Source: Cryobacterium sp. CG_9.6
GTDB lineage: Bacteria > Actinomycetota > Actinomycetes > Actinomycetales > Microbacteriaceae
Direction: 5' to 3'
DNA length: 64,000 nucleotides
NCBI RefSeq assembly: GCF_029893365.1
Contig: NZ_JARXUZ010000001.1
Coordinates: forward strand, 3,038,001 to 3,102,000
The notes under the pieces were generated by a model. That model was not told where the DNA came from. It saw nothing but the letters and a program-made list of their open reading frames with translations, and did not search any database. The translations under genes were made by a program, and so were the position numbers. Shown here piece after piece: positions 18,078 through 34,515 of this stretch; position 1 is the stretch's first letter; every line of letters starts with the position of its first letter.

Positions 18078-18094
18078 GTTTCACTCAGCGGAAC
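18078..18094. promoter_or_regulatory. Operator-like palindrome 2 of the IclR module
   Basis: GTTTCACTCAGCGGAAC: the right half is the consensus AGCGGAAC; the left half agrees in six of eight positions. It ends 8 bp before ATG 18102 of the CoA-transferase gene, a position suited to blocking transcription or initiation. Confidence 0.55.
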
Positions 18095-18101: not shown

Positions 18102-19301
18102 ATGTCGAATTCCCCCTCACCCCTGGCGGGCATCCGCGTCTTGGATGTCTCCACAATTTTGGCTGGCCCGTTGTGCTGCCAAATTCTGGGTGATTTTGGC
18201 GCTGATGTGATCAAGATCGAGCACCCCGTCCGCGGCGACAGCATGCGCGGGCACGGCGAAAGCAAGAACGGCGTGCCGATTTGGTGGAAAGAAGTTTCCC
18301 GAAACAAGCGTGCCCTCGCGCTCATCCTAAGCACCGAGTACGGGGCCGCCGTCTTCAAGAAGCTCGTCGCCACGGCCGACATCGTGGTCGAGAACTTTCG
18401 CCCGGGAACCCTCGAGAAGTGGGGCCTCGGTCCCGAGGAGCTTCTCGCCATCAACCCCGGTCTTGTATTGGTGCGCTTGACCGGCTTCGGCCAGACCGGC
18501 CCGTACTCCTCCCGTGCCGGGTTCGGAACCCTCGCAGAAGCAATGAGCGGGTTCGCTCACCTCACGGGCCAGGCCGACGGCCCACCCACGCTTCCCGCCT
18601 TCGGCTTGGCCGACAGTATTTGCGGAATCGCCGCTTCATCGGCGGCACTGATGGCGTTGCGTCACCGCGACCAAACCGGTACGGGACAAGTCGTCGATCT
18701 GAGCATCCTCGAGCCCATCATGACCGCAGTGGGGCCCGGCCCCAGCAACTATGACCAGCTCGGGATCATTGGCCAGCGAAATGGTAACCGTTCCACAAAT
18801 AATGCTCCTCGAAACACCTATCTCACGCAAGACAACAAATGGGTGGCGGTGTCCACAAGCGCTCAAACCATTGCCGAGCGCGTCATGCACATCGTGGGTC
18901 ACCCCGAGGTGATCGAGGAACCGTGGTTCGCCGCTGGAAGCACCCGCGTGCAGCACGTCGAAGAACTCGATGCCTACGTTGGCTCCTGGATCAGTGATCA
19001 CACCCGCGCCGACGTCATGGAGATCTTCTCTGTCGCGGGTGCTGCCGTCGCCGCCGTCTATGACGCGCAAGACATCGTCGAGGATCCCCACATTCGTGAA
19101 ACCAACATGCTCGTGGATGTCCCCGACAAAGATTTCGGCACCGTACTTCAACACAACGTGATGTGGCGCATGAGCGAAACACCAGGAAGCATCCGCTTCA
19201 CCGGACGAGGTCTGGGCGAAGACAGCGACAGCATTCTGGCCGAAATTGGTTATGACGCTGGAGAAATAACCACGCTACGAGAAAGTGGAACAGTTAGATG
19301 A
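18102..19301 (+). CDS. CaiB/BaiF-type (family III) CoA-transferase
   Basis: A 399-aa family III CoA-transferase, moving CoA between carboxylic acids. Typical opening LAGIRVLDVSTILAGPLCCQILGDFGADVIKIEHP, NKRALAL, VENFRPGTLEKWGLG, LVRLTGFGQTGPYSSRAGFG, and the catalytic Asp in GLADSICG (about residue 171). The start ATG 18102 gives the normal N-terminus; upstream in-frame codons run through the operator. First gene of the operon; its stop overlaps the cyclase start (ATGA). It most likely activates an organic acid intermediate of the pathway as its CoA ester. Confidence 0.93.
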   Translation: MSNSPSPLAGIRVLDVSTILAGPLCCQILGDFGADVIKIEHPVRGDSMRGHGESKNGVPIWWKEVSRNKRALALILSTEYGAAVFKKLVATADIVVENFRPGTLEKWGLGPEELLAINPGLVLVRLTGFGQTGPYSSRAGFGTLAEAMSGFAHLTGQADGPPTLPAFGLADSICGIAASSAALMALRHRDQTGTGQVVDLSILEPIMTAVGPGPSNYDQLGIIGQRNGNRSTNNAPRNTYLTQDNKWVAVSTSAQTIAERVMHIVGHPEVIEEPWFAAGSTRVQHVEELDAYVGSWISDHTRADVMEIFSVAGAAVAAVYDAQDIVEDPHIRETNMLVDVPDKDFGTVLQHNVMWRMSETPGSIRFTGRGLGEDSDSILAEIGYDAGEITTLRESGTVR

Positions 19302-20110
19302 CGGACGCACTGATCGAAGCCGTAGCCCAAGGGCTGCACATGGTTGATTTGGGCAGGCAGCTGAAAGTGGGCATGCCACAATCCCCGAACCACCCGCAGT
19401 TTTGGCACACCCTCCCCCGTAGGCACGGAGACAGCATGCGTGCCGATGGTGGGAGCGCCGCCAACGACATGATTTCCACCGGTACCCATGTCGGCACGCA
19501 CATTGATGCCCTGGCGCACGTGAGCCAAGACGGCAAACTGTTCGGTGGAGCAGATGCCGGAAGCGCGTGTCTCGGGGGTAAGTATGTGGAACACGGCGTG
19601 CACACCATCAAGCCGATGGTGTGTCGGGGGGTCCTGCTCGACGTTCCCACCTACCTCGGGGTTGCTGACCTCGAAGGCGGCTATGAAATTACGGCCGAGG
19701 ACATTGCGGGAACGATCAACACGCAGCACACACCGGTGGGCCCGGGCGACGTTGTGCTGATCCGCTCCGGCTGGGGCAAGAAGTTCGCCGAAGGAGCCGC
19801 CTACGTGGGTGGCCCCTCGGGAGTGCCTGGAATCGGCGAAGGTGCCGCGACCTGGCTGGCAGCGCAGCACATTCACGCGGCCGGTGCCGACACCATTGCG
19901 TTCGAACGGCTGGCACCGGGCGGCGGGCACGCCCATCTGCCGGCTCATCGCGTGTTCCTCGTAGAAAACGGGATCTACATTATTGAAGCGCTCGACCTTG
20001 AGGAGCTAGCAAGCCGGCGTCTGTACGAATTTATCTTCGTCTTGGTGCCCTTGAATATCTTCGGGGCAACGGGGTCTCCCGTGCGACCGCTGGCGTTGGT
20101 CTCCGCATGA
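19298..20110 (+). CDS. Cyclase-family metal-dependent hydrolase
   Basis: A 270-aa member of the cyclase family (Pfam Cyclase; relatives are kynurenine formamidase and isatin hydrolase), which hydrolyses amide bonds with bound Mn or Zn. The metal motif HxGTHxDxxxH is visible as GTHVGTHIDALAH (about residues 66-78); further signatures are GDVVLIRSGWG and GPSGVPGIGEGAATWLAAQ. No signal peptide. It overlaps the CoA-transferase stop and the MmgE/PrpD start, so the three are translationally coupled. Ring opening or amide cleavage of the substrate is the likely step. Confidence 0.9.
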   Translation: MTDALIEAVAQGLHMVDLGRQLKVGMPQSPNHPQFWHTLPRRHGDSMRADGGSAANDMISTGTHVGTHIDALAHVSQDGKLFGGADAGSACLGGKYVEHGVHTIKPMVCRGVLLDVPTYLGVADLEGGYEITAEDIAGTINTQHTPVGPGDVVLIRSGWGKKFAEGAAYVGGPSGVPGIGEGAATWLAAQHIHAAGADTIAFERLAPGGGHAHLPAHRVFLVENGIYIIEALDLEELASRRLYEFIFVLVPLNIFGATGSPVRPLALVSA

Positions 20111-21573
20111 GCACCGAGACGACACTCGCCCAACAACTGGCCGACTTTGCAGCCAATCTGCACTACGACGACATCCCTGTCGCTGTGGTCGAGAGCATCA
20201 AAGCCCGGGTGCTGGATATCCTCGGCATCTGCGCTGCAGCAGCTCCGCTGGAGACGAGTCGCGGCGCGCGCGCCTGGGCCATGGAGCAGGGGGGCAGCGC
20301 ACAGGCCAATGCCGTTGGGGTGGCGCAGGCTCTGCCTGCGTCACTTGCAGCCTTTGTCAACGGCGTACTTGCGCATTCGCTCGACTATGACGACACACAC
20401 CTTCCATCGGTGTTGCATCCGAGCGCCAGCGTCATTCCGGCGGTTCTCGCTGCCGCGCAGGCCAAGGGCGCCAACGGTACTGAGGTCATTCGCGCCATTG
20501 CGATTGGACTCGAGACCACGGTGCGTCTCGGCATGGCTGGTTTTGACAAGGAGAGCGGCAACTCGGTGTTCTTCGAACACGGGCAGCATGCAACCTCAAT
20601 TTGCGGAACGATGGGGGCCGCTACCGCTGTCGCCGCGCTCTATGGTGATGCCACGCTCATACGAAACTCACTCGGTGTCGCAGCATCAATGGCCTCGGGA
20701 ATTATCGAATCAAACCGAACCGGCGGAACCGTCAAGCGCATCCACTGTGGCTGGGCTGCGCACTCGGCAATCAGCGCCGTCAACTTGGTGCGCTTCGGGC
20801 TGACCGGGCCACCCACGGTGCTGGAAGGCCGATTCGGCTTTTATCAGGCGTGGCTGCACGGCAAATTTAAGGCCAGCGAGATCACCGACGGCCTCGGCAA
20901 GACGTGGTCCATCCAAGACATCTTCTTCAAGCCCTACCCGGCGAATCACTTCACTCACGCAGCGGTCGACGCCGCTGCGGCACTCCGACGCGCGGGGATC
21001 ACCCCCGAGCTGATCGAGTCCCTCGTATTGGGCGTGCCTGCTCCTAATCTGCGAACCATTGGGGAGCCAATCGAGGTGAAGCGCCGGCCAGAGACGGGGT
21101 ACATGGCTCAGTTCTCTGGACCGTATGCCGTGGCAGCTGGTCTCCTCGGCGGCGGCGGACTTGAAGTCGGCCTCGATGACTATACCGACGAGCTCGCGCA
21201 GGACCCGGTTCGGCGACAGATTATGGCTAAGGTCAACGTGGTACCTGACGCCGAATGCACCGCGATCTTCCCGATGCAATTTCCGGCAGTGTTGACCGCC
21301 CATCTTGTGGATGGCCGCACCATTGTGGAAAAGGTGCTCACCACCCGCGGGGGCCCCGATCGTCCCCTCAGTTTCGACGAGCTCAGCCGCAAGTTCCGTG
21401 ACAACGCTCAGCGAACGCTGAGCAGTGACGCCATGGATCACCTTGAGGCGGGTTGTCGCGACCTCGACCAGAGTGAGAACGTCAACGACATCTTCGTGCA
21501 CCTCTCCACAATCGACGCGGATGCACCTACCGCGTCGATTCCTTCAACTCACTTCACCTCCGCCACCGTTTAG
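20107..21573 (+). CDS. MmgE/PrpD family protein 1
   Basis: A 488-aa MmgE/PrpD protein, the family of 2-methylcitrate dehydratase and cis-aconitate decarboxylase. Seen: LVxDILGICAAAA at the start, SLDYDDTHLPSVLHPSASVIPAVLA, CGTMGAATAVAAL, KRIHCGWAAHSAISA, and FFKPYPANHFTHAAVDAA. It would add or remove water from, or decarboxylate, a branched di- or tricarboxylic acid. It overlaps the cyclase gene by 4 bp. A second family member lies at 30786 in the same regulon. The two proteins are not close copies, so they probably act on different intermediates. Confidence 0.9.
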   Translation: MSTETTLAQQLADFAANLHYDDIPVAVVESIKARVLDILGICAAAAPLETSRGARAWAMEQGGSAQANAVGVAQALPASLAAFVNGVLAHSLDYDDTHLPSVLHPSASVIPAVLAAAQAKGANGTEVIRAIAIGLETTVRLGMAGFDKESGNSVFFEHGQHATSICGTMGAATAVAALYGDATLIRNSLGVAASMASGIIESNRTGGTVKRIHCGWAAHSAISAVNLVRFGLTGPPTVLEGRFGFYQAWLHGKFKASEITDGLGKTWSIQDIFFKPYPANHFTHAAVDAAAALRRAGITPELIESLVLGVPAPNLRTIGEPIEVKRRPETGYMAQFSGPYAVAAGLLGGGGLEVGLDDYTDELAQDPVRRQIMAKVNVVPDAECTAIFPMQFPAVLTAHLVDGRTIVEKVLTTRGGPDRPLSFDELSRKFRDNAQRTLSSDAMDHLEAGCRDLDQSENVNDIFVHLSTIDADAPTASIPSTHFTSATV

Positions 21574-21584
21574 AAAGGCACGAC

Positions 21585-23048
21585 ATGTTCACTTATGACC
21601 TGTTGATCAAGAATGTCCACGTGGTCCGGCCAGACCAAGATCACGTGGAATCTCTGGATGTCGCCATCAAGGACGGCAAGTTTGCGTCCATCGCGGCCGA
21701 CATTGACCCCAGCACCGCTGCTGACGTGGTTGACGGCCAGGGGCGGCATCTCTTCCCGGGCGTCGTGGATGCCCACCAGCACTGGGGCATCTACAACGAG
21801 CTGTCCGAGGACACCAATATTGAGAGCCGCGCGAGCGCCCAGGGTGGGGTGACCAGCGGAATTACATATGTACGCACCGGTGCGTACTACCTCAACAAGT
21901 CCGGCCCGTATAAGACCATTTTCCCCGAGATCCTGCAGGCGGCCGAAGGCCGGGCCTTCATCGACTACGCCTTTCACGTCGCCCCGATTCTCAAGGAGCA
22001 CATCGACGAAATCCCTGATCTGATCGACATGGGCGTGCCCTCGTTCAAGATCTTCATGTTTTATGGGATTCACGGTCTCCATGGCCGGTCGAGTGATCAG
22101 GGAAAGTTCCTCATGATTCCCGAGGACGAATCCTACGACTACGCCCATTTCGAGTTCATCATGCGCGGCATTGAGAAGGCCCGCCGTAACCCGAAGTACG
22201 CGGCAATCAAGGATCAGATCTCGCTGTCACTGCACTGTGAGACCGCCGAGATCATGCGCGCGTATACCAAGCTCGTGGAAGAGGAGGGCGTGCTCACCGG
22301 GCTCGAGGCCTACAGCGCCTCCCGTCCACCGCACTCGGAGGGCCTCGCAATCACAATCGCGTCTTATCTGGCCTACGAGACTGAGATGCCGAATATCAAT
22401 CTCCTGCACCTCAGCTCACGCAAAGCCATCGAAGCGGCCATGCTCATGCAGACGACTTTTCCGCACATCAATTTTCGCCGCGAAGTCACCGTCGGGCACC
22501 TGCTCGCCGACTGCGAAACCACCGGGATTGGCGGCAAAGTCAACCCGCCGCTGCGCCCTCGCGAAGACGTCGAGGCAATGTGGACACACCTCTTGGCCGG
22601 GGACTTCTCCTGGGTGAGCTCGGACCACGCCTGCTGCAAAGACGAGGCCAAGTTCGGCGATCCGAAGGACGACGTCTTTCTGGCCAAGTCGGGGTTCGGC
22701 GGGGCCGAGTACCTGCTGCCCGGACTCATCTCCGAAGGACGCAAGCGCGGCCTGTCATACAACAAGATTGCGCAGCTGGTGTCTCAGAACCCCGCCGCAC
22801 GCTTCGGCTTGGCGGGCAAGGGCAACATTGCCGTTGGGTACGACGCCGACTTCTGTCTCATCGACGACACGGTCGGCCAGACCGTACGCGCCGATGACTC
22901 GCTCTCAGCCCAGGAATACACCCCGTTCGAAGGGTATGAGCTCACCGCCACCGTCACCGATACCTACCTCCGTGGCGGGGCCGTTTACCGCGACGGAGCC
23001 ATCCTCGGCGAACCGCGTGGGCAGTTCGTGAAGCGCTCCGGCAACTAG
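21585..23048 (+). CDS. Dihydropyrimidinase/allantoinase-like amidohydrolase
   Basis: A 487-aa cyclic amidohydrolase of the dihydroorotase/hydantoinase superfamily. Metal site: HxH in VVDAHQHWG (about residues 60-64), the Lys that is carbamylated in this family in PSFKIFMFYG, His in LSLHCET, LLHLSS and the Asp in WVSSDHACC. The C-terminus NPAARFGLAGKGNIAVGYDADFCLID is typical. It should open a cyclic imide, lactam or ureide ring. GAAAGG lies 6 nt before ATG. Last gene of the plus-strand operon, ending at a strong hairpin. Its exact substrate cannot be read from the sequence. Confidence 0.92.
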   Translation: MFTYDLLIKNVHVVRPDQDHVESLDVAIKDGKFASIAADIDPSTAADVVDGQGRHLFPGVVDAHQHWGIYNELSEDTNIESRASAQGGVTSGITYVRTGAYYLNKSGPYKTIFPEILQAAEGRAFIDYAFHVAPILKEHIDEIPDLIDMGVPSFKIFMFYGIHGLHGRSSDQGKFLMIPEDESYDYAHFEFIMRGIEKARRNPKYAAIKDQISLSLHCETAEIMRAYTKLVEEEGVLTGLEAYSASRPPHSEGLAITIASYLAYETEMPNINLLHLSSRKAIEAAMLMQTTFPHINFRREVTVGHLLADCETTGIGGKVNPPLRPREDVEAMWTHLLAGDFSWVSSDHACCKDEAKFGDPKDDVFLAKSGFGGAEYLLPGLISEGRKRGLSYNKIAQLVSQNPAARFGLAGKGNIAVGYDADFCLIDDTVGQTVRADDSLSAQEYTPFEGYELTATVTDTYLRGGAVYRDGAILGEPRGQFVKRSGN

Positions 23049-23070
23049 CCAACCAACTAGGTCACAAAGA

Positions 23071-23102
23071 AAGGAGGCAGCGGCGCCCGCCGCTGCCTCC
23101 TT
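23071..23102. terminator. Strong bidirectional terminator
   Basis: A perfect 14-bp stem AAGGAGGCAGCGGC / GCCGCTGCCTCCTT with a GCCC loop, between the convergent amidohydrolase and CitE-like genes. Flanking A and T runs serve both directions. Confidence 0.92.
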
Positions 23103-23133
23103 GACATGTCGTCAAATTAGTTTGTCGCCCAGG

Positions 23134-24039
23134 CTAGAACTCCAACGTGCTGCGCAGGAGAACCTCGTGGGCGCCCCGAACAACAGCGGCGTCGATCATG
23201 CGGCCATCAGCATCCAGTGCAACGCCGCCCTGTGCCTGCTCCATGCATGCGACCACAGCTCGTGCAGCCTCAATGTCGGCCGCACCCGGAGTGAATACAC
23301 CGTGGATGACGGGCACCTGTTTGGGATGCACTGCCGTGCGGGAACGAAACCCGAGGTCGAACATTTTTTGGCTGCTGTCGGCAAATGCCTCAAGGGCATG
23401 CACCGCAGTCGATGTGGGGGCGACCGGCGGCAACAACCCCGCCGCCGCCGCACTCACAACGAACCGCACTCGAAGCGAGTCCAAAGCCACCTCGGACTGC
23501 GCGCTGCGGGTCATTCGCAGATCGGCCATGAGGTCAACCTCACCGATGGCAAACGTAACCAGTCGTGGGTTGCTCGCCATAACGTCAAGCTGGAGCAGTG
23601 CTGCGGCGCTCTCAACGAGCCCAATAACGCCCGCGGTTCCGGGTGCAAGCCCATGCTCAAGTTCCAACGCGGTAATCGTTTCGACAGCCTGTTCGAGAAG
23701 TGGGACGGTACATTTGGCCAAGAAAACCCCGGCGAGACCCGCTCCAACGACGGCTGTGAGGTCGGCGACGACGTCTTCTGCGCTCACACGCACCCAGTGT
23801 TGCTGTCGTGGGCGTTCGGTTGCCGCTACGGCTGCGGGTCGACCTGCGAACCAGGTGCGGAGGTTCTGCCGTGCAACCGATTTTCGGTCGGTCGGAACCG
23901 CGTCCTCGAGGTCAAGAATAAGAGCGTCTGCGGGGCCGTTCGCACCTTTGTCGAACAGCGCTGGCTGGTCTGCTGGCACATAGAGAAAAGATCGTGGCAG
24001 GAATAGCGGCCGAACGACGGCCGTGGCGAGCGCAAACAC
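23134..24039 (-). CDS. CitE-like HpcH/HpaI aldolase family lyase
   Basis: A 301-aa CitE-like protein (citrate lyase beta/malyl-CoA or citramalyl-CoA lyase family), cleaving or forming C-C bonds of acyl-CoA or acid intermediates with Mg2+. Seen: PRSFLYVPADQPALFDKGANGPADALILDLEDAVP (substrate/Mg segment), VRVSAEDVV, GVIGLVESAAALL (Mg Glu), FAIGEVDLMADLR and GFRSRTAVHPKQVPVIHGVF. GTG 24039 follows the IclR stop by one base, so the two form an operon. In the pathway it could be the final retro-aldol step releasing acetyl-CoA or pyruvate. Confidence 0.88.
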   Translation of the reverse strand: MFALATAVVRPLFLPRSFLYVPADQPALFDKGANGPADALILDLEDAVPTDRKSVARQNLRTWFAGRPAAVAATERPRQQHWVRVSAEDVVADLTAVVGAGLAGVFLAKCTVPLLEQAVETITALELEHGLAPGTAGVIGLVESAAALLQLDVMASNPRLVTFAIGEVDLMADLRMTRSAQSEVALDSLRVRFVVSAAAAGLLPPVAPTSTAVHALEAFADSSQKMFDLGFRSRTAVHPKQVPVIHGVFTPGAADIEAARAVVACMEQAQGGVALDADGRMIDAAVVRGAHEVLLRSTLEF

Positions 24040-24040
24040 C

Positions 24041-24817
24041 TCAGCGACTCAGCAGCGCGGTAATTTGACGTGCCGCTGCGGTGACCTTCTCAGCGTGCCC
24101 TTCAACGTCGGCAGCGTCATAGCGAAAGATCGGCCCGCAGGAGCTGATCGAGCCCATGACGTTCCCGGCTTTGTCAAAGAAGGCGGCGGCAATGGACGCA
24201 GCGCCGATGTTTCGCTCGTTGAGCGACGAAGCATAGCCATCCACTCGAACTTTGGTGAGCTTGCGTCGGTAATCAACCTCGTCAAAGTCTGCATGGAGCA
24301 CCCTCAGCTGCTCAACGGCCTCGTCCACACGTGCCGGTGCTAAGAAAGCCAAAATCGCCCGGCTTGACGCACCCGAATGAAGCGGATGACGCACCCCGAT
24401 TTCAACGACCATCTTTATTTCGCGCGGGCTCTCGTACTGGTCGAGGTAGATTCTCGAATCATTCGAGAGAACAGACAGTGTCGTGGTCTCCATGGTCTTA
24501 TCCCGGAGTGCTCGAAGAACTGGGGAGGCGATCGTGCGAAAGTCGAGCTGGTTCCATGCATTGTTTCCGAGCCGAATCGCACTCGGCCCCAACACGTAGT
24601 TTGAGGACTGCGGCAACGTCTGTAGCAGCCCGCGAGAACTGAGCGATTGCAAAATACGGTGCACCACGGCTTTGCTGAGGTCGAGTGTGCGCGCAATCTC
24701 GGAAACACCGATTGCGCCATCGACTCGGCTGAAGAGCAAAAGCACGTCCGCGACTCTGTCACCAGCCTCCGTGCCTCCGGCGCTCGGACGAACATTTGTG
24801 ATGTTTTGCCGTTGCAT
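24041..24817 (-). CDS. IclR family transcriptional regulator
   Basis: A 258-aa IclR protein: N-terminal winged helix (RVADVLLLFSRVDGAIGVSEIARTLDLSKAVVHRILQSL..., about residues 20-75) and C-terminal GAF-like effector domain (IYLDQYESPREIKMVVEIG, HSGASSRAILAFL, GYASSLNERNIGAASIAAAFFD). ATG 24817 was chosen because GAGAGG lies 7 nt upstream. A palindrome (24852-24868) stands 35 bp before the start, implying autoregulation, and identical half sites precede the ABC operon and the CoA-transferase operon. It is the likely switch for the whole module A. Confidence 0.93.
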   Translation of the reverse strand: MQRQNITNVRPSAGGTEAGDRVADVLLLFSRVDGAIGVSEIARTLDLSKAVVHRILQSLSSRGLLQTLPQSSNYVLGPSAIRLGNNAWNQLDFRTIASPVLRALRDKTMETTTLSVLSNDSRIYLDQYESPREIKMVVEIGVRHPLHSGASSRAILAFLAPARVDEAVEQLRVLHADFDEVDYRRKLTKVRVDGYASSLNERNIGAASIAAAFFDKAGNVMGSISSCGPIFRYDAADVEGHAEKVTAAARQITALLSR

Positions 24818-24851
24818 CGACAATCCTCTCGTTGGGACCAGCTTAACGAAT

Positions 24852-24868
24852 TAGTCCGCTGAGCGGAA
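24852..24868. promoter_or_regulatory. Operator-like palindrome 3, iclR promoter
   Basis: TCCGCTGAGCGGA is a perfect palindrome with a 3-bp centre, within AGTCCGCTGAGCGGAAT. It matches the core of the 24960 site and lies just upstream of the iclR start. Confidence 0.7.
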
Positions 24869-24959
24869 TGGCCAATCGTGTTACGTTCCTGTAAATCGAT
24901 AGCTATCTTGGCTGCTCTCGTGTAACACTAGGCAAACGCGGCCTTCTCGCCGCAATTAA

Positions 24960-24978
24960 CGTTCCGCTTTGCGGAACG
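24960..24978. promoter_or_regulatory. Operator-like palindrome 4, ABC operon promoter
   Basis: CGTTCCGCTTTGCGGAACG: a perfect 8-bp inverted repeat around TTT, the best copy of the family, 75 bp before the substrate-binding protein gene. IclR regulators usually bind such 15-19-bp palindromes. Confidence 0.75.
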
Positions 24979-25052
24979 GCTTCACGTTCTTCATTCCTCT
25001 CAGCGCACCGCCGCGCGAGAGCATCTGAAACTGAAAGGTCGCAGGAAGCAAC

Positions 25053-26279
25053 ATGACCAAGAGAATCTTGAGCGCAGCGGCGATCGTAGTCGCCATGTTC
25101 GGAGTGACCGCCTGTTCAACAGGCGGCGGTGACACGGCCTCCGCCGCAGACACCATCATGATTGGATCCGTTCACCCGCTGAGCGGAGGGCTGGCGGGTG
25201 TCGGCGGTCTCATGAACGACGGAGCCAAACTCGCAATTGAAGACATCAACGCCGCCGGCGGGATCGAGTCACTGGATGGTGCTCTCCTTGAGCTCATCGA
25301 CGGTGACAGCCAGGGCAGCGCCGAAACCGGCCAGAGCGAAGCTCAGCGCCTCATCAGTGCTGGCGCAGTCGCCCTTGTAGGTACGTACCAGTCTGACGTC
25401 ACGCAGAATGTGGCATCCGTTGCGGAGCGCGCCAAGGTGCCGCTGGTGATTGACGTGGCCGTTGACGACAAGATTCTCAGCCAGGGCTACCAATACAGCT
25501 TCAGAATTCAGCCTGACGCCAGCAGCATGGGCCAGTCGGGAGCAAACGAACTCGTTGCGATGGCTGCCGCGAGCGACCTCACGATCAACACAGTGTCGTA
25601 CATCCACATTGAGGGTGCTTTCGGCGGCAGCGTCTTCGAGGCGTTCAAAGCTGAGGCCGAGGGCCTCGGTATCACCGTCGCTAAGGAAGTCACCTACTCA
25701 GGTACCAACTTCTCTGATGCCACGACACAGGTTGCCGATGCACTCACTGTCAACCCCGACGTGATTGTCGTCACCGGATACTTTCCCGACAACCTGCTTG
25801 TAGCACAGGCCGTGAAGGCCATGAGCCCCGACATCAAGGCCGTATACGGCATCGCGAGTGGCGCCTTCGACGACAGTTCCTTCCCGACCAGCGCCGGCGA
25901 GGCCGCGAGCGGAATCCTGAGTGCGAACTACCACTACAGTGCCACAAGCGACCGTGCCGCCGACATCCGCACTCGCTTCGAGGCGAAGTACGGCAAGGCA
26001 ATGGAAACCTCAGCAATGCTGTCGTACCAGGCCGTTGAGGTCATTGCGGCCGGCCTCGAAGAGGGTGCTTCTGCTGACCCCGTCGAACTCCGAGACGCCA
26101 TTTCTGGCCTGAGTCTGGAAGACCCCCTTCTCGCCTTCAAAGGTCCGATCGAATTCGATGAACGTGGCCAGAACAAGAACGCGTCGGTGATCGTGATGCA
26201 GGTTCAAGATGGTGTGATCCAGCAGGTGTATCCCATCGACTTCGCTACAGCAGATCTCGTCTTTCCGACCGGACAGTAG
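25053..26279 (+). CDS. ABC transporter substrate-binding lipoprotein, branched-chain amino acid type
   Basis: A 408-aa type I periplasmic-binding-protein of the LivK/urea/amide family. The lipobox VTAC (about residues 17-20) after a short hydrophobic segment marks a membrane-anchored lipoprotein. GSVHPLSGGLAGVGGLMNDGAKLAIEDINAAGG and LVGTYQSDVTQNVASVAERAKVPLV are typical. It captures the substrate outside the cell. First gene of a nine-gene plus-strand operon, 75 bp behind the best palindrome. The ligand is probably the substrate of module A rather than an amino acid. Confidence 0.92.
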   Translation: MTKRILSAAAIVVAMFGVTACSTGGGDTASAADTIMIGSVHPLSGGLAGVGGLMNDGAKLAIEDINAAGGIESLDGALLELIDGDSQGSAETGQSEAQRLISAGAVALVGTYQSDVTQNVASVAERAKVPLVIDVAVDDKILSQGYQYSFRIQPDASSMGQSGANELVAMAAASDLTINTVSYIHIEGAFGGSVFEAFKAEAEGLGITVAKEVTYSGTNFSDATTQVADALTVNPDVIVVTGYFPDNLLVAQAVKAMSPDIKAVYGIASGAFDDSSFPTSAGEAASGILSANYHYSATSDRAADIRTRFEAKYGKAMETSAMLSYQAVEVIAAGLEEGASADPVELRDAISGLSLEDPLLAFKGPIEFDERGQNKNASVIVMQVQDGVIQQVYPIDFATADLVFPTGQ

Positions 26280-26285
26280 ACGATC

Positions 26286-27308
26286 ATGACTCCCAGCACG
26301 TCCAACGTACTCATACACGACACTGAAACAGAGGAGCCAACCCGGCGGGCATTTGTTCTGTCCCCGGCGTGGAAGGTGAGCCTGGGCGTCACCGCCCTCG
26401 CGATCGCGGCCCTCGCGCTGATCTACCTCGTAGGCGACCGTGCCGATTCGCTGGTTACTCAGGCGATTGTCACCGGGCTGCTCCTCGGCGGAGTCTATGC
26501 GCTCGCGTCATTGGGCTTGACGTTGATCTTCGGCGTGCTGGGAATCGTAAATTTTGCCCAGGGAGCAATGCTCTCCATGTCAATGTTCATCGTCTACTTC
26601 ATGGTGTCGACGTTCGGCATGAACACCTATCTCGCCGTCATTGTGACGGTACCGATCATGTTCGGCTTCGGCTGGCTATTTCAATCCACACTCATGAACC
26701 GGTTGTCCGGCGACAGCGGCCACGAGCGTCCGCTGCTGGTGACACTCGGGCTTTCCTTGCTCATCATCAACACGCTGCTGATGATTTTTGGCGGACGCCC
26801 TCTCTCCGTCGACGCACCGATTGAAGGTTCGCTTCGCATTCTCGGAGCCATCGCCGACTATCCCCGCATGATCGCTTTCGGTGGTGCCGTCATCGTGGCT
26901 GCCGCCCTGGCACTCATTCTGAAAAAGTCACCCCTGGGCTTGGCCATTCGGGCGGTGTCTGAAAACAACGAGGGTGCGTCACTCGTGGGAATCAACGTGC
27001 GTCGAATCTACGCTCTGACCTTTGGGCTGGGCTCGGCTGCGGTGGCAGTTGCGGGTGGCTTGCTCACCCCCTTCACCAGCCTCATCCCCTCTGTGGGTGA
27101 TCAGTACACCACTCTGGCATTCGTCATCGTGGTTCTCGGCGGGCTCGGCAGTATCCCCGGAGCCGTGATCGGTGGCCTCTTCATCGGTCTCCTGCAAACG
27201 GTCGGGTCGCTGTACCTCCCGGGCAGCGGCTCTCTATTGCTCGTCTTCGTTGTGTTCGTTCTCATTCTCTTCTTACGCCCTCAAGGACTCCTCGGAGCAA
27301 AAAAATGA
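26286..27308 (+). CDS. Branched-chain amino acid-type ABC permease, LivH-like
   Basis: A 340-aa inner permease with about eight hydrophobic helices. The N-terminus is extended by about 50 residues, including one extra hydrophobic segment. GLLLGGVYALASLGLTLIFGVLGIVNFAQGAM is the LivH signature and NEGASLVGINVRRIYALTFGLGSA the coupling region. It starts 6 bp after the binding protein and overlaps the next permease by 4 bp. Confidence 0.92.
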   Translation: MTPSTSNVLIHDTETEEPTRRAFVLSPAWKVSLGVTALAIAALALIYLVGDRADSLVTQAIVTGLLLGGVYALASLGLTLIFGVLGIVNFAQGAMLSMSMFIVYFMVSTFGMNTYLAVIVTVPIMFGFGWLFQSTLMNRLSGDSGHERPLLVTLGLSLLIINTLLMIFGGRPLSVDAPIEGSLRILGAIADYPRMIAFGGAVIVAAALALILKKSPLGLAIRAVSENNEGASLVGINVRRIYALTFGLGSAAVAVAGGLLTPFTSLIPSVGDQYTTLAFVIVVLGGLGSIPGAVIGGLFIGLLQTVGSLYLPGSGSLLLVFVVFVLILFLRPQGLLGAKK

Positions 27309-28351
27309 CGAAAGTCGATACTTCACGGCGTGCAGTCGCGCCCCGAGCGCCCCGCACCTCGCAGAGTGGCGCACGCCGCCAGTACATGTACCTGACCATT
27401 GGACTTGCCGTCTTCTTCTTTCTGCCCTTCGTGCTCCCCGAATCAGCCCAACCCGTGGCCGTGCGCACGCTCATCTTCGCCATCATGGCTGTGGGCTGGA
27501 ACCTGATGAGCGGTTACGGCGGCATGTTCAGCTTCGGCCATGCGGCATTCTTCGGCGTTGGCGCCTACACCGTAGCTTTTCTCCTGACGGAATATGGCAT
27601 CTCCCCGTGGATCTCCATGATCGTTGGAGCCATTCTCTCGGCTGGCGTCGGGGTACTCATTGCCTACATGTGCCTGCGATACAAGCTCGCAGGGTCATAC
27701 TTTGCACTCGCAACTTTCGCCTTCGCGCAAATGTTTCTGCTCATTGCCCAGGGCGCAGAATTTCTCAACAAGACCGAAGGCATCAACATCCCTCTGCTTC
27801 CGCAGGAATCCTGGGTAATGATGCAGTTCGATCAGAACAGCTATTACTACTACTGGATTCCCTTAGGACTTCTGGCCATCGTCGTGGCCGTCTCCATCTA
27901 TTACGTCAATTCCCGAGCTGGTCAGTTCACGCAGGCCATCCGCGACGATGCGATTGCAGCTGAGTCGCTAGGAATCAACGTCATGCGGTATCGGCTCATC
28001 ACAGTGGCATTGAGCTGTGCAATCACCGCAATTGCCGGTGCTTATTACACCCAGTACTACCTCTTCGTCGGTCCCGAACAGGCCTTTGGCCTGCATGTTT
28101 CCATTGATGCGCTGATTCCTGCGGTGATCGGAGGCATGGGAACCATTTGGGGTCCACTCGTGGGTGCGGCTGTGATGGGGCCCCTATCCGAAGTGATCGC
28201 GGGGCTGTTGCGTAATCCCCCACCCTTCCTGGAGTTCTTGCAGGGGCGAAGTGGACTCGATGTGGCGGTCTATGCCGTTCTTCTGATCGCAATCGTGGTC
28301 TTCATGCCCAAGGGCATATTCGGAACTATCCGGGATAGGTGGCGCAAATGA
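27305..28351 (+). CDS. Branched-chain amino acid-type ABC permease, LivM-like
   Basis: A 348-aa polytopic permease. Signature AVGWNLMSGYGGMFSFGHAAFFGVGAYT, then AIRDDAIAAESLGINVMRYRL as the ATPase-contacting loop and GGMGTIWGPLVGAAVMG near the end. ATG 27305 overlaps the LivH-like stop. Works as heterodimer with the preceding permease. Confidence 0.92.
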   Translation: MTKVDTSRRAVAPRAPRTSQSGARRQYMYLTIGLAVFFFLPFVLPESAQPVAVRTLIFAIMAVGWNLMSGYGGMFSFGHAAFFGVGAYTVAFLLTEYGISPWISMIVGAILSAGVGVLIAYMCLRYKLAGSYFALATFAFAQMFLLIAQGAEFLNKTEGINIPLLPQESWVMMQFDQNSYYYYWIPLGLLAIVVAVSIYYVNSRAGQFTQAIRDDAIAAESLGINVMRYRLITVALSCAITAIAGAYYTQYYLFVGPEQAFGLHVSIDALIPAVIGGMGTIWGPLVGAAVMGPLSEVIAGLLRNPPPFLEFLQGRSGLDVAVYAVLLIAIVVFMPKGIFGTIRDRWRK

Positions 28352-29067
28352 GTCTGCTCACAATCGAGGGGCTGTCCAAGTCTTTTGGCGGGCTCAAAGC
28401 CCTCAAGGACATCTCCATTGAGATTCCCGAAGACGAATTTCTGGGAATCATCGGCCCGAATGGTGCTGGCAAAACCACACTGTTCTCTGTGTTGGCCGGG
28501 CAGATTCCGCCCACGTCGGGCCAGGTGACGTTCGACGGTCGTGACATCACGGGGTGGGCGGCCGACCGGGTCGCATCCATTGGCCTGGTGCGCACCTTTC
28601 AGCTCATGCGACCGTTCGAAAGCATGACCGTGCTCGAGAATGTTGCCATCGCCTCACACAGCAAGCATCGTTCTGTGGTGAACGCTCGCACGCACGCAGC
28701 GGCCGTGATCGAGCGCGTGGGCCTGGGTCCCTACATCAACTCCATGTCGGGGACTCTCCCGACCGCTGGACTCAAGCGGCTCGAGCTCGCGCGAGCACTC
28801 GCCTTGGAACCCAAGATGATTCTTCTCGATGAAGTGTTAGCCGGACTCGTTCCCACCGAGCGCGCACCGATCATTGAGCTGCTGCGCGACATTCACCGCG
28901 AGGGCGTGACGGTGATGTTCGTTGAGCACATCATGGCAGCAGTGATGGCACTTTCTCAGCGCCTGCTCGTGATGCATGAGGGCCAACAGCTTGCGCTGGG
29001 TGACCCTGCGTCGGTCATTCAAGACACTCGAGTTGTTGACGCTTATCTCGGAGAGGACTACGCCTGA
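28348..29067 (+). CDS. ABC ATP-binding protein, LivG-like
   Basis: A 239-aa ATPase: FGGLKALKDISIEIPEDEFLGIIGPNGAGKTT (Walker A), signature-like TLPTAGLKRLELARALA, Walker B MILLDEVLAGL. The signature LSGGQ is altered to LPTAG, and the DEP of Walker B is DEV, both as often seen in LivG. ATG 28348 overlaps the permease stop; a GTG 9 bases earlier is less likely. Pairs with the LivF-like ATPase. Confidence 0.92.
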   Translation: MSLLTIEGLSKSFGGLKALKDISIEIPEDEFLGIIGPNGAGKTTLFSVLAGQIPPTSGQVTFDGRDITGWAADRVASIGLVRTFQLMRPFESMTVLENVAIASHSKHRSVVNARTHAAAVIERVGLGPYINSMSGTLPTAGLKRLELARALALEPKMILLDEVLAGLVPTERAPIIELLRDIHREGVTVMFVEHIMAAVMALSQRLLVMHEGQQLALGDPASVIQDTRVVDAYLGEDYA

Positions 29068-29768
29068 TGCTGCAAATGAAGAATGTCTGCGCCGGATACC
29101 GCAGACTCGCAATTCTGCATGACCTCACCCTGCACATCAATCAGGGTGAAATTGTCTCGGTGATCGGAGCCAACGGAGCGGGCAAGACCACTGCACTGCG
29201 GGCACTGGCCGGCATCATCAACGCCACGAGCGGAGACATTCTCTTCGAGGGAAAGTCCATCGCCAAGTCGCGGCCTGACCAGATCGTTCGGGCGGGTCTC
29301 GTGCACGTGCCCCAAGATCGCGCACTTTTCGGCGGTCTCCCGGTCATAGAAAACCTTGTCGCGGGGGCATACACCCAACCGAAATCAACGATCAGCGCAT
29401 CCCTCGACGAGGTCTTCGAGCTCTTCCCCATTCTGAAAGACCGTCGCGCCCAGCTCGCCAACACTATGTCGGGCGGCCAACAGCAGATGCTCGCCATCGG
29501 GCGTGCACTCATGGCCCGGCCCACGTGCCTCACGCTTGACGAACCGTCGATTGGGCTGGCTCCCAACCTGGTGGCGCAGGTGTTTAACGCCATTACCCGC
29601 ATCAGCGAGACCGGAGTAACCGTGCTCATCATCGAGCAAAACGCCTCTCAAGCCCTCGCCATCTCCGACCGCGCGTACGTCATGGAGAGTGGGGCCATTG
29701 CCTTAGAGGGAACCGGACTCGAACTGGCCGACAGCCCAGCAGTACGCAAGGCCTACCTCGGCATGTAG
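29067..29768 (+). CDS. ABC ATP-binding protein, LivF-like
   Basis: A 233-aa ATPase: VSVIGANGAGKTT, VPQDRALFGGLPVIENL, MSGGQQQMLAIGRALM, CLTLDEPSIGLAP and IIEQNASQAL, the standard LivF layout. It shares one base with the LivG-like stop (TGATG). Completes the five-gene importer. Confidence 0.92.
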   Translation: MLQMKNVCAGYRRLAILHDLTLHINQGEIVSVIGANGAGKTTALRALAGIINATSGDILFEGKSIAKSRPDQIVRAGLVHVPQDRALFGGLPVIENLVAGAYTQPKSTISASLDEVFELFPILKDRRAQLANTMSGGQQQMLAIGRALMARPTCLTLDEPSIGLAPNLVAQVFNAITRISETGVTVLIIEQNASQALAISDRAYVMESGAIALEGTGLELADSPAVRKAYLGM

Positions 29769-29782
29769 CCGCAAAGGACATC

Positions 29783-30109
29783 ATGGAATTTCTTGTAAAG
29801 ATTGACATCAACTGGCCACCAGAAACCGATGAAGCACGCCGAGCAGAGATCTTTGAGCGCGAGTTGGCTCGCGGTCAGGAATTAGCCCGAGAAGGAAAGA
29901 TCCGCCGCATCTGGCGCATTCCGGGCAGATGGGCCAACTGGAGCCTCTATGTGGTTGCGGACGCGACAGAGCTCCACGCCGCGCTCACGTCCCTGCCGCT
30001 GTATCCCTGGATGGACATTGAGGTACATGCGCTGGCTGAGCATCCCAATGACCCCCGCGCTTTGGGCATCACTCCACCGATCGAAGAGCCAACGGCGGTG
30101 CGCTCATGA
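29783..30109 (+). CDS. Muconolactone delta-isomerase-like protein
   Basis: A 108-aa protein of the muconolactone isomerase family (MIase), small ferredoxin-fold enzymes that shift a double bond in a lactone. Seen: MEFLVKIDINWPPETDEARRAEIFERELARGQEL, then KIRRIWRIPGRWANWSLYVVADATELHAALTSLPLYPWMDIEVHAL, the full family pattern. It is slightly longer than usual (about 95) because of the C-terminal tail. No catechol pathway genes are near, so its substrate is probably a lactone or unsaturated acid of module A. Overlaps the racemase start by 4 bp. Confidence 0.85.
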   Translation: MEFLVKIDINWPPETDEARRAEIFERELARGQELAREGKIRRIWRIPGRWANWSLYVVADATELHAALTSLPLYPWMDIEVHALAEHPNDPRALGITPPIEEPTAVRS

Positions 30110-30789
30110 GACTCCTCGCGATCACCCCGTTGTGTGTCGACGCGGGAGAGTTACTGAGACGGCAACAGCGCTACAACAGGCTGGCACCGGTTGGCCTGTC
30201 GATTCAACTTCTCAATCTGGGTAACGGCTCCGAGATACCGCGCGCCCTTAACACGAACGAGGACATCATCGCGTCCGAGGCAGCCCTCCTCGCGCGATTT
30301 CGAGCCATCGACACCGGGAATGATCCCGAAGCCAATCTCACGGCAGTCGATGCCTACCTGCCCGACTGCGTCCTGGATCCGGTCGTCGATCTGCCCTACA
30401 GCGGCCTATCCCGTCCGGTTTTGGGCCTGCTCAAACTGACCGCACACTTTCTGGTCAGCCTCGGGGGGACCGTCGGCGCCGTGGCACGGAATGAGGCCAT
30501 CGCCCAAGAACTGGACCGCAAATTTGTGAGCTATGGCCTCGGTCAACCCCACGGTGCGACATCCGTTCTGGGCCTTTCCGTTGCTGACATCGCCAACGAT
30601 GAGATCTGGGCTCGGGCCGTGAACGCTCATCTTCAGACAATGCCAGCACACGTAGTCATTAACGGTTGCTCGGCTGTCGAAGCCGCGGGGCCGAGCGGTC
30701 GGCCCGTGCTGGTGGACCCAACAAAGACTGCCCTCCAACTCATCGCGCTGGGTGCGGCCGTTGGTGCCGTGTCGACGGCCGGCGAATGA
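30106..30789 (+). CDS. Asp/Glu/hydantoin racemase superfamily protein
   Basis: A 227-aa protein of the Asp/Glu racemase superfamily, which also includes hydantoin racemase and maleate isomerase. Two Cys candidates sit where the catalytic pair is expected: the first in LPDCVLDP (about residue 87), the second in INGCSAVEAAG (about residue 187). LRLLAITPL-type opening and LVDPTKTALQLIALGAA at the end match. It probably epimerises or isomerises an acid or cyclic intermediate. Translationally coupled on both sides (ATGA overlaps). Confidence 0.8.
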   Translation: MRLLAITPLCVDAGELLRRQQRYNRLAPVGLSIQLLNLGNGSEIPRALNTNEDIIASEAALLARFRAIDTGNDPEANLTAVDAYLPDCVLDPVVDLPYSGLSRPVLGLLKLTAHFLVSLGGTVGAVARNEAIAQELDRKFVSYGLGQPHGATSVLGLSVADIANDEIWARAVNAHLQTMPAHVVINGCSAVEAAGPSGRPVLVDPTKTALQLIALGAAVGAVSTAGE

Positions 30790-32138
30790 GTGCCGCATCC
30801 GCTCAAATTGCAGCGGTCAACGAACTTGCCGACTTTGCTGCCGACTTGCGGTATCGAGATTTACCCCTGGCGGTGCGCGAACGACTGACGCTTATGCTGG
30901 TTGATCTCCTGGGAGTGACGGCGGCTGGTGCCCGCACGCCGGAGCTCACGGCCCTCGCCGAGGTGTGGCCCAGAAGCACCGGCAGTGCACCCATTATTGG
31001 CACTCGCCGCACCACCAGCCCCGAGACCGCTGCCTATCTCAACGCCATCGCTGCCTGCTGTCTTGAACTGGATGAGGGCAACAAGCACGCCCAGGGACAC
31101 CCTGCGGCGCACGTGGTTTTCAGCGCCATGGCGGCCGTGCAGCTGGCCTCTCGTCCCATCACCGGGGCGGAATTTCTCACTGCCGTAGCGGCGGGATACG
31201 AGGTTGCGGCCAGATTCGGACGCGCCCTCGACCGCAAAGCGGAGTGGCACACCCATGGTCACTGGGGCGTCACGGGTGCCGCGTGCGCCGCAGCACTGAT
31301 CATGGGAGCATCGCGTTCTCAGATTGCTGCGGCTATCGACACCTCCACAGCTCTGATGAATGTGACCCCCTGGGCGACGGTATTGGGCGGCAACTTTGTG
31401 CGAAATCTCTGGGTTGCCAGCGCGAACATGGCGGGCCTCCAGGCGGCGCGACTGGCACTGGCCGGGCTAGCCGACAACAATGCAACTGCTCTCGACACTC
31501 TCGGCAACATCGTTGGCGAACTGCGCACTGACACGCTGACCCGTGAGCTTGGTACCCACTGGCTACTTGCGGAAGGGTACGTAAAGCAACATTCCTCCTG
31601 CTCTTACACTCACGCGGCCGTGGATGCGGTTCAGAGTCTCAAAGCACGTGGCACCTTCGGCGTGGACGACATCAGCAGCGTCAGAGTGCGCACACACTCT
31701 CTGGCGAAGCCGCTCTTCACTCGAGACCCGCACAACCGTTTATCGGCCATGTTCTCCCTCCCGTTTGTGGTCAGCTCCGCCATCGTCAATGCGACCCTGG
31801 ACCCCGCGGCGATGGAGCCCGGGTCGCCTGAATTTGAGTCGTCGCAAGCATTCAGCGCCCGAGTTTCCGTGGAGACCTCGGCCGAATTCGATCGACAGCT
31901 ACCTCTGGAACGCTGGTCGGGTGTGGATATCACCCTCAACGATGGCTCCGTGCTCTCCGAATCACGTCCCAACCCCATCGGTGACGTGGACTACTTTCCC
32001 ATGGGCGCGGCCGAGATTGAGGCCAAACTCACCGCGCTCCTCGGTACGGGAGACAGCCAAAGTCTTCACCACATACTTTCTGATTTGGAAGACAGCACCG
32101 ATGCTGTCCTCATCTTCAACAAACTCAGCGCTGTCTAA
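30786..32138 (+). CDS. MmgE/PrpD family protein 2
   Basis: A 450-aa MmgE/PrpD protein. ATG 30786 overlaps the racemase stop and decides the start; longer frames run antiparallel to nothing known. Seen: LMLVDLLGVTAAGARTPE, CCLELDEGNKHAQGHPAAHVVFSAMAA, HWGVTGAACAAAL and EGYVKQHSSCSYTHAAVDAV. The active-site segment (ELDEGNKHAQGHPAA) differs from that of paralogue 1 (LDYDDTHLPSVLHPSA), so it belongs to a different branch. Predicted dehydratase or decarboxylase of a carboxylic acid intermediate. Confidence 0.9.
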   Translation: MSAASAQIAAVNELADFAADLRYRDLPLAVRERLTLMLVDLLGVTAAGARTPELTALAEVWPRSTGSAPIIGTRRTTSPETAAYLNAIAACCLELDEGNKHAQGHPAAHVVFSAMAAVQLASRPITGAEFLTAVAAGYEVAARFGRALDRKAEWHTHGHWGVTGAACAAALIMGASRSQIAAAIDTSTALMNVTPWATVLGGNFVRNLWVASANMAGLQAARLALAGLADNNATALDTLGNIVGELRTDTLTRELGTHWLLAEGYVKQHSSCSYTHAAVDAVQSLKARGTFGVDDISSVRVRTHSLAKPLFTRDPHNRLSAMFSLPFVVSSAIVNATLDPAAMEPGSPEFESSQAFSARVSVETSAEFDRQLPLERWSGVDITLNDGSVLSESRPNPIGDVDYFPMGAAEIEAKLTALLGTGDSQSLHHILSDLEDSTDAVLIFNKLSAV

Positions 32139-32168
32139 CTCAGCCCACCACACCGCAAGGAGAACAAC

Positions 32169-33545
32169 ATGACGCAGGAAGAATTTGATGGGCCGGACCT
32201 CGTTGTCGTGGGAGCTGGCGGAGGGTTGGTAGCGGCGCTGCGCGCGGCACAGCTTGGATTGTCCGTGCTCGTGGTCGAAGCCAACAGCCGCTTTCGACGC
32301 GGAAACAACACCGCAATGTCGACCGCCATGATTCCCGGAGCGGGAAGCCGGTGGCAGACCGAGGCCGGAATTGTCGACTCACCAGAACAGTTTCTCGCCG
32401 ACATCATGGCAAAAACGCACGATGAAGCCGACCCGCAACTTGCGCGAGCACTCGCGGGGGTAAGCGCACGGCTCGTAGAGTGGATGGCCGACGATCTGAA
32501 GCTTCCCATGTCTCTCGTCACTGATTTTCCCTACCCTGGGCATTCACGTCTCCGCTGCCACACCGTGCCTGGTCGAATCGGTACAGCGCTGCTCACCTCT
32601 ATGCACGCGCAGGTGGAAGAGTCACCTCTCATCGACCTGTACCTCCCGGCTCGCCTCGTCGACGTCATCGTCACCGACGGTGCCGTGAGTGCCGTCGTGG
32701 TGGAGACGGCCGACGGGCGCGAAGAGATCCCTACACGGGCAGTCCTGATGGCCACGAATGGTTTTGGTGGCAACAGCGCGCTGGTGGCGGAGCACCTGCC
32801 ACAGATTGCGGACGCCATCTATTACGGCAGCGAAGAATCGCAGGGCGATGCCCTGCGCATCGGAACCACACTGGGTGCGGCAACCGGCTTTCTCGATGCG
32901 TATCAGGGCCATGCCGCACTCGCGATGCCATCAGCCACTCTCGCTGGCTGGGCAACGGTCATGCACGGGGGCTTTCTGGTGAATAAGGCCGGTCTTCGAT
33001 TTGGCGACGAAACGATGGGCTATTCCGAATATGCGCGCGAGTCTCTCCTGCACGCTGACGGACAGGCATGGATCATTCTGGATCTACGCATTCATGACGC
33101 CTGCGAACCCTTCCAGGATTTTCGTGACACCGTTTCGTCGGGCGGGCTGCGCTGGGCCGAGTCCATCGAAGAGCTAGCGACAACCACAGGCATTGACGCT
33201 GCTGGGCTTCAGCAGACGCTCGAGAGCACTCGAAGCTTTGGCCGCGGCGAAACGCAGGACGACTTCGGCCGTACGTTGTGGGAGGCGCCCCTCGCTGGGC
33301 GTCTGGGTGCGATCGCCGTTCGTCCCGCGTTGTTCCATACCCAGGGCGGTCTGCGTGTGAACGGAGATGCTCAGGTGCTGACCGAGAGCGGCGAGGCAAT
33401 TCCGGGCCTGTACGCCTCCGGTGGTGCAGCAATGGGCATATCGGGCCACGGGGCCGGTGGGTATCTGGCGGGCAACGGTCTGCTGCCGGCACTGGGACTC
33501 GCGCTTCTGGCCGCCGAGCACGCGGCCGGTTCCCGTACCGTCTAG
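32169..33545 (+). CDS. FAD-dependent oxidoreductase, fumarate reductase/KstD-like
   Basis: A 458-aa flavoprotein of the FAD_binding_2 family (fumarate reductase flavoprotein, 3-ketosteroid dehydrogenase). N-terminal dinucleotide fold DLVVVGAGGGLVAALRAAQLGLSVLVVEA, RGNNTAMSTAMIPGAG, the middle ATNGFGGN and the C-terminal GLYASGGAAMGISGHGAGGYLAGNGLL FAD segment. The GxGxxG loop appears one residue short (GAGGGL). No covalent-flavin His or heme motif. It may introduce or reduce a C=C bond next to a carboxyl group. GGAG stands before ATG; last gene of the operon, followed directly by dispersed repeats. Confidence 0.88.
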   Translation: MTQEEFDGPDLVVVGAGGGLVAALRAAQLGLSVLVVEANSRFRRGNNTAMSTAMIPGAGSRWQTEAGIVDSPEQFLADIMAKTHDEADPQLARALAGVSARLVEWMADDLKLPMSLVTDFPYPGHSRLRCHTVPGRIGTALLTSMHAQVEESPLIDLYLPARLVDVIVTDGAVSAVVVETADGREEIPTRAVLMATNGFGGNSALVAEHLPQIADAIYYGSEESQGDALRIGTTLGAATGFLDAYQGHAALAMPSATLAGWATVMHGGFLVNKAGLRFGDETMGYSEYARESLLHADGQAWIILDLRIHDACEPFQDFRDTVSSGGLRWAESIEELATTTGIDAAGLQQTLESTRSFGRGETQDDFGRTLWEAPLAGRLGAIAVRPALFHTQGGLRVNGDAQVLTESGEAIPGLYASGGAAMGISGHGAGGYLAGNGLLPALGLALLAAEHAAGSRTV

Positions 33546-34474: not shown

Positions 34475-34515
34475 CCCACACCCGCTGAATAAACACGGCA
34501 GGTCAACCAGACGAT

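Follow-up and report, generated by a model that had tools for sequence, protein, structure and literature searches.

An IclR-linked gene cluster of Cryobacterium sp. CG_9.6 that may serve the breakdown of cyclic imides

Results and discussion

Gene content of the cluster

The window analysed here is a stretch of 64,000 nucleotides from Cryobacterium sp. CG_9.6 (contig NZ_JARXUZ010000001.1, positions 3,038,001 to 3,102,000). Within it, 15 open genes fill positions 18102-33545 and form a putative catabolic cluster, the subject of this report. Four genes (CoAT, CYC, PrpD1, and AHY) read forward, followed by a CitE-like gene and an IclR-type regulator on the reverse strand and then by nine forward genes: those for a substrate-binding protein (SBP), LivH, LivM, LivG, LivF, MIase, RAC, PrpD2, and FAD (Table 1). 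The enzyme classes named in a preliminary description of this DNA are all encoded here as open frames. Pfam assignments of the cluster proteins are above cut-off except for RAC (28.4 vs 31 bits); the CitE-like assignment comes from solved relatives and NCBIfam rather than from Pfam. The start of PrpD2 was corrected, and the ATG at 18102 is favoured as the CoAT start because an operator-like site with one mismatch directly precedes it.

Table 1. Genes and operator sites of the cluster (window positions)
Feature	Position	Strand	Basis
Operator palindrome GTTCC-N7-GGAAC upstream of CoAT operon	17927..17943		exact match
Possible second operator half or variant site	18078..18094	+	one mismatch; weak alone
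CoAT, family III CoA-transferase	18102..19301	+	PF02515, E 1.9e-115
CYC, metal-dependent hydrolase, proposed second C-N (half-amide) hydrolase	19298..20110	+	PF04199
PrpD1, MmgE/PrpD protein, proposed unsaturated-diacid hydratase	20107..21573	+	PF03972/PF19305
AHY, cyclic amidohydrolase (allantoinase/hydantoinase-like), proposed ring opener	21585..23048	+	model matches, conserved residues
CitE-like acyl-CoA lyase	23134..24039	-	solved relatives; RipC_Ccl 125.4 of 375 bits
IclR-family regulator	24041..24817	-	PF01614, PF09339 above cut-off
Operator palindrome in IclR/SBP divergent promoter region	24961..24977		exact match
SBP, Liv-type substrate-binding protein	25053..26279	+	PF13458
LivH-type permease	26286..27308	+	PF02653
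LivM-type permease	27305..28351	+	PF02653
LivG-type ATPase	28348..29067	+	PF00005; start taken from gene call
LivF-type ATPase	29067..29768	+	PF00005
MIase, muconolactone-isomerase-family protein, accessory	29783..30109	+	PF02426, E 2.5e-33; TIGR03221 93.2 of 130.6 bits
RAC, Asp/Glu-racemase-superfamily protein, accessory	30106..30789	+	PF01177 28.4 bits; allantoin/hydantoin-racemase fold
PrpD2, second MmgE/PrpD protein of another subgroup, accessory	30786..32138	+	PF03972/PF19305
FAD, FAD_binding_2 flavoprotein, proposed desaturase of the ring beside a carbonyl	32169..33545	+	PF00890

Conservation and linkage in Actinomycetota

Relatives of the cluster were found with an alignment of 18 AHY sequences, and the best 80 loci of at least 417 confirmed candidates, all from named genomes, were compared. 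The linkage counts cover the 57 loci with a length of 21 kb or more (the 23 shorter ones were excluded), with only matches that span 50% or more of the query scored. At 45% identity or more, CoAT is present in 54 of these long loci, CYC and PrpD1 in 42 each, and all three together in 39; FAD is found in 25 and LivH in 16. At 38% identity or more, the regulator occurs in 44, the CitE-like gene in 21, PrpD2 in 19, and RAC in 18. MIase is present in only 6 of the 80 loci. When six enzymes were scored (CoAT, CYC, PrpD1, FAD, RAC, and PrpD2), three long loci (L016, L028, and L071) had at most one each. Queries from outside the set found nothing comparable in the long loci: zero matches for the IS110, GntR, and TRAP large permease genes, one weak match for the TRAP binding protein, and seven weak matches for the SDR, none of them at 38% identity or more. 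The outer limits given in the preliminary description therefore coincide with those of the conserved unit. The gene set is not unique to Cryobacterium sp. CG_9.6 but recurs as a co-located group, with core genes linked in 42-54 of the 57 long loci.

All named records among the 80 loci that could be placed either are actinobacterial or carry such a label. Two of them (L041 and L052), labelled as a Bifidobacterium breve metagenome-assembled genome, hold AHY and linked core genes; this label looks wrong. In an evenly drawn sample of the phylum, AHY was detected at E<=1e-120 in 16 of 396 genomes, the source genome included. The loci of the 15 other genomes, used as a second sample, comprised 10 with two or more of the six enzymes at 38% identity or more, two with one (L104 and L110), and three with none (L099, L108, and L111); two of these last five are contigs shorter than 8 kb. 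Five AHY proteins of this sample are only 43-44% identical to the query, and three of their loci (L109, L112, and L113) keep FAD, CoAT, CYC, PrpD1, CitE, and IclR. Within the family, the source genome was alone among 150 in having AHY at the same threshold, though two genomes of the genus were sampled; another Cryobacterium (L005) does have AHY. The distribution of AHY in the family is patchy, and the gene has perhaps been transferred.

Gene content varies around the core. The window's set is repeated in L005, L014, and L017, with RAC, PrpD2, and FAD in most of them; in L005 all genes lie on the same strand in the order IclR-CitE-CoAT-CYC-PrpD1-AHY-Liv-RAC-PrpD2-FAD. Other loci, such as L073 and L078, combine FAD-AHY-CoAT and an MFS transporter but lack RAC and PrpD2. 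Because of such loci, and because they are missing from many relatives, RAC, PrpD2, and MIase are regarded as accessories. In L044, L045, and L082, FAD is missing and a molybdenum hydroxylase and an OYE-type reductase are present instead (by Pfam in L082, at 64-75% identity in the other two); this pair could make a ring imide. OYE is found in 5 and FAD in 25 of the 57 long loci, none having both (one-sided p 0.048, with loci that are not independent). An M20-type hydrolase is carried by L019, L026, L030, and L061, and L033 has OYE together with a carboxymuconolactone-decarboxylase-family protein, DUF2848, and an arylmalonate-decarboxylase-family protein. Three operator sites of Dactylosporangium L016 are next to VOC-type genes and a FAD_binding_2 gene. 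The core is therefore joined to differing upper parts.

A shared operator

The intergenic region between the IclR and SBP genes contains an inverted repeat, GTTCC-N7-GGAAC, and the CoAT gene is preceded by the same palindrome. When at most one mismatch is allowed, the window has four such sites vs 2.18 expected, which is not significant by itself. In the 80 related loci (1,544,206 bases), however, there are 47 exact sites in 31 loci, vs 0-4 for each of eleven other spacings (2 to 13). Intergenic positions account for 46 of the 47, and most of these immediately precede an SBP, CoAT, FAD, IclR, PrpD2, or transporter gene (one of the 46 is in L041, a record without gene calls). The site upstream of the CoAT operon recurs in relatives, e.g. 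L012, L013, L014, and L017, and 9 of the 15 loci in the second sample have the palindrome. It was found in 24 of 44 loci bearing IclR vs 1 of 13 without it (p 0.003, uncorrected, the loci not being phylogenetically independent). From this association and from its position, the palindrome is the probable binding site of the IclR protein. With the operator at both of its main promoter regions, the cluster looks like one regulon, in agreement with the single co-located unit under shared control proposed in the preliminary description.

The 17-bp site is not rare in the genome, where it occurs exactly at four places, two of them in the cluster (the reversed control pattern occurs at nine). Of the two further sites, one falls inside a called gene and the other where two convergent genes end; neither was counted in the regulon.

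Ring-side enzymes

Metal ligands of the cyclic amidohydrolase superfamily follow the pattern HxH, Lys, His, His, Asp. AHY has this pattern (H64, H66, K155, H217, H275, and D347), which is invariant in 18 aligned relatives. Its nearest models are those of allantoinases and hydantoinases, but AHY is under the cut-off in all of the best 25 of 58 NCBIfam models (allantoinase, hydantoinase, and dihydroorotase tested), including allantoinase (234 of 631 bits, 230 of 358). An AlphaFold model of AHY from 18 rows had a mean pLDDT of 44.6, too low for use. The solved relatives of CYC are 5ibz, which is uncharacterised, and isatin hydrolases; H64, H68, D70, and H74 of CYC are conserved in at least 95% of 51 sequences.

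RAC has the fold of allantoin and hydantoin racemases and both catalytic cysteines, which places it in the Asp/Glu/hydantoin racemase superfamily. Because its fold is nearest these ring racemases, RAC should act before the ring is opened. Family searches of the cluster proteins found no pyridoxal-phosphate enzyme or amino-acid oxidase; nitrogen should thus leave by hydrolysis, and two hydrolases would allow for an imide.

The FAD protein had been described as fumarate-reductase-like. In fumarate reductases of the flavocytochrome c type, Arg402 is catalytic and Arg544 binds the substrate. When FAD is aligned to flavocytochrome c3, Tyr285/Ser286 and Tyr432 stand at these two arginines, and H248 and H390 at the two histidines; H248, Y285, H390, and Y432 are conserved in at least 95% of 31 sequences. 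A role as fumarate reductase was rejected on these two residues, and introduction of a double bond beside a carbonyl is a likelier activity of FAD than fumarate reduction.

Acid-side enzymes and importer

The best NCBIfam model for CoAT is succinate-glutarate CoA-transferase (240.8 of 750 bits), and Asp171 is conserved in at least 95% of 61 sequences. Both PrpD1 and PrpD2 belong to the MmgE/PrpD family, with both Pfam domains above cut-off. The solved relatives of PrpD1 are cis-aconitate decarboxylase, which is the best, and IDS epimerase; its residues H90, D93, D95, D96, T97, and H98 are conserved in at least 95% of 49 sequences, and the PrpD2 motif E94-D96-E97-G98 is conserved in at least 95% of 28. 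The CitE-like lyase named in the preliminary description is present and nearest RipC/Ccl, yet its score is far under the RipC_Ccl cut-off; R84, E143, and D169 are conserved in 12 sequences. Sequence relatives of SBP include amino-acid, urea, and unassigned binders, from which no substrate hint was drawn.

Counterparts on plasmids

Twelve plasmid loci were picked from 60 among the matches listed, out of 998 and 463 matching records. Five, on alphaproteobacterial and haloarchaeal plasmids, have Liv genes, PrpD2 at 33-36% identity, and FAD at 40-44%: Haloferax L086, Roseomonas L088, Neorhizobium L089, Tistrella L091, and Azospirillum L094. The last is without annotation, and neighbours were compared in the other four. 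In Haloferax these are an amidohydrolase (29% to AHY), isochorismatase, LeuCD, a CoA-transferase (47%), and HMG-CoA lyase; in Roseomonas and Neorhizobium they are HyuAB, a cysteine hydrolase, LeuCD, and ICL/PEPM, with two racemases in the latter. Tistrella has ICL/PEPM, two racemases, and a second MmgE/PrpD gene, with an amidase further off. The HMG-CoA lyase and LeuC of the plasmids are above subfamily cut-offs, and ICL/PEPM is nearest methylisocitrate lyase (297 of 354 bits). These neighbours are different enzymes whose chemistry matches that of the cluster. Two further loci (L092 and L096) have Liv genes and PrpD2 with no FAD match, the FAD gene being cut off at the edge of L096, and L087, L090, L093, and L095 share just one or two parts. 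The RAC query had no match on the plasmids, and the exact operator was found in none of the 12 loci.

A gene at L089:5386-6357, annotated 'nitronate monooxygenase', scores as OYE (NamA model, 284 bits, under cut-off). An island on the Halomarina plasmid (L096:7301-41248) holds two amidohydrolases, two isochorismatases, two LeuCD pairs, three CoA-transferases, ICL/PEPM, HMG-CoA lyase, a CoA ester lyase, and an LLM flavoprotein.

Proposed pathway and alternatives

The reading that we put forward, tentatively and at somewhat less than an even chance, is that these genes form a catabolic cluster under regulation, directed at a small chiral nitrogen heterocycle; a cyclic imide (-CO-NH-CO-) with a ring of five or six atoms is the likeliest candidate. 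The Liv-type importer would take up the ring compound, RAC would equilibrate its enantiomers, and FAD would desaturate a C-C bond beside a carbonyl. AHY would then open the ring to a half-amide, and CYC would hydrolyse the second C-N bond to release ammonia and a maleate-type unsaturated diacid. PrpD1 may hydrate this diacid to a malate-type acid, to which CoAT would transfer CoA from a donor such as succinyl-CoA; the CitE-like lyase would then split this product into an acyl-CoA and a 2-oxoacid (pyruvate or glyoxylate). The range of isomers handled may be broadened by PrpD2 and MIase, and the IclR protein would control the set through the GTTCC-N7-GGAAC sites. The catabolic interpretation of the preliminary description thus persists in its recurring co-regulated set, two C-N hydrolases, diacid-type middle, and CoA/lyase end, with its fumarate reductase replaced by a desaturase; its branched dicarboxylic acid end is conjectural.

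A cyclic imide fits best, and hydantoins are possible. Several observations weigh against the imide pathway as drawn. The nearest folds of RAC are ureide-ring racemases, which suit hydantoin as well as imide; MmgE/PrpD enzymes also include decarboxylases and epimerases; the argument from enzyme replacement rests on 12 hand-picked plasmid loci; and the Neorhizobium HyuA is nearest caprolactamase alpha (498 of 1000 bits), suiting a lactam. The exact operator is missing from 26 of the 57 long loci, which the absence of IclR explains only in part, as 20 of 44 loci with IclR also lack it. A ureide route, in which a 5-substituted hydantoin is racemised by RAC and opened by AHY to an N-carbamoyl compound, with CYC as a carbamoylase or other amidase, would suit the nearest relatives of both RAC and AHY; we regard it as unlikely, as AHY is far under the cut-offs of those models, family searches of the cluster proteins found neither a known carbamoylase family nor an amino-group-removing enzyme, and the diacid, CoA, and lyase half is left unexplained. 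It is improbable that PrpD1 instead decarboxylates like cis-aconitate decarboxylase, its best solved relative, to give an itaconate-type acid that CoAT, the CitE-like lyase, and a hydratase whose gene lies outside the cluster would degrade as in itaconate catabolism. The lyase is nearest RipC/Ccl, and in one locus (L085) a RipB/Ich-like MaoC hydratase is encoded close to such a cluster, but the set here has no MaoC hydratase, the genome's single RipB-like match lies apart from the cluster and under cut-off (139 of 340 bits), and LeuCD-type hydratases occupy the place expected of PrpD1 in Neorhizobium and Roseomonas.

Two other origins of the ring have still smaller claims. That the ring derives from nicotinate or isonicotinate, the cluster degrading a glutarimide-type intermediate, is quite improbable. 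Fungal nicotinate breakdown reaches 2-hydroxyglutarate via a molybdenum hydroxylase, OYE, a cyclic imidase, and an amidase (PMC9304392), and some actinobacterial relatives of the cluster carry the first two; Pfam searches found neither in the window's set, however, and that paper relates the fungal imidase to HpPgdA and PuuE, apparently not to the family of AHY. The literature search gave nothing on the isonicotinate route. Hardly to be expected is a route without nitrogen, in which the substrate of the MIase- and cyclase-type proteins would be a lactone or an oxygen ring: the family of MIase and the VOC-type genes beside operator sites in Dactylosporangium point that way, but MIase is so rarely present in related loci, and the distant counterparts use C-N hydrolase families (HyuAB and isochorismatase).

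Neighbouring genes

An IS110-family transposase gene (16444-17562; 155 bits, above cut-off) adjoins the left edge of the cluster. To the right, 33770-42672 is a second catabolic-looking cluster with a GntR regulator, a TRAP transporter (DctP, DctQ, and DctM), an SDR, and further gene calls. At 13709-15004 is a gene for a protein with a GNAT-like N-terminal part and a C-terminal part resembling the AAA part of proteasome-activating nucleotidase.

Relation to known systems and significance

Microbial cyclic-imide metabolism proceeds by an imidase and a half-amidase to a dicarboxylate and is not known to include an MmgE/PrpD, CoA-transferase, or CitE-like step. The cluster is predicted to share the two successive C-N hydrolyses and differs in having these further enzymes. 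Itaconate degradation (CoA-transferase, RipB/Ich hydratase, and RipC/Ccl lyase) resembles it in the family III CoA-transferase and the type of lyase, but both matches are far under cut-off, the MaoC hydratase is missing, and the cluster has an extra ring-opening half. Hydantoin and allantoin utilisation likewise pairs a racemase with a cyclic amidohydrolase, corresponding to the RAC fold and AHY superfamily; it differs in that AHY is under the model cut-offs, no N-carbamoylase family was found among the cluster proteins (CYC as a carbamoylase is possible), and the lower half depends on CoA. In the nicotinate (Hxn) pathway of Aspergillus nidulans, a cyclic imidase and then an amidase lead to a dicarboxylic acid, with OYE and a molybdenum hydroxylase upstream as in some relatives of the cluster; its imidase is of another family, and the accessible part of the report mentions no MmgE/PrpD protein, CoA-transferase, or lyase (PMC9304392). 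In these comparisons, nicotinate- and hydantoin-type routes share parts and not the set, as had been proposed. No description of this gene set, and no matching pathway for a known compound, was found in the literature searched, whose coverage mostly excluded subscription papers and preprints, so that a description elsewhere is possible.

A wider and more doubtful proposal is that of a widespread, so far undescribed funnel pathway for cyclic imides, in which several upper modules (Liv import with racemase and desaturase, molybdenum hydroxylase with OYE, and others) would converge on an AHY-CYC-PrpD1-CoAT-CitE core in Actinomycetota, with the same chemistry performed by other families in Alphaproteobacteria and haloarchaea. 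Substrates would be soil imides or imide-forming heterocycles, conceivably substituted maleimides from chlorophyll or haem breakdown. Additional members can be sought simply through the operator, and the substrate through the binding protein. If the proposed pathway is true, a class of nitrogen heterocycles with a poorly assigned breakdown in soil would gain a complete catabolic route together with its regulator and operator, and tens of related loci whose current annotation is dihydroorotase, cyclase, or MmgE/PrpD family protein would receive functions.

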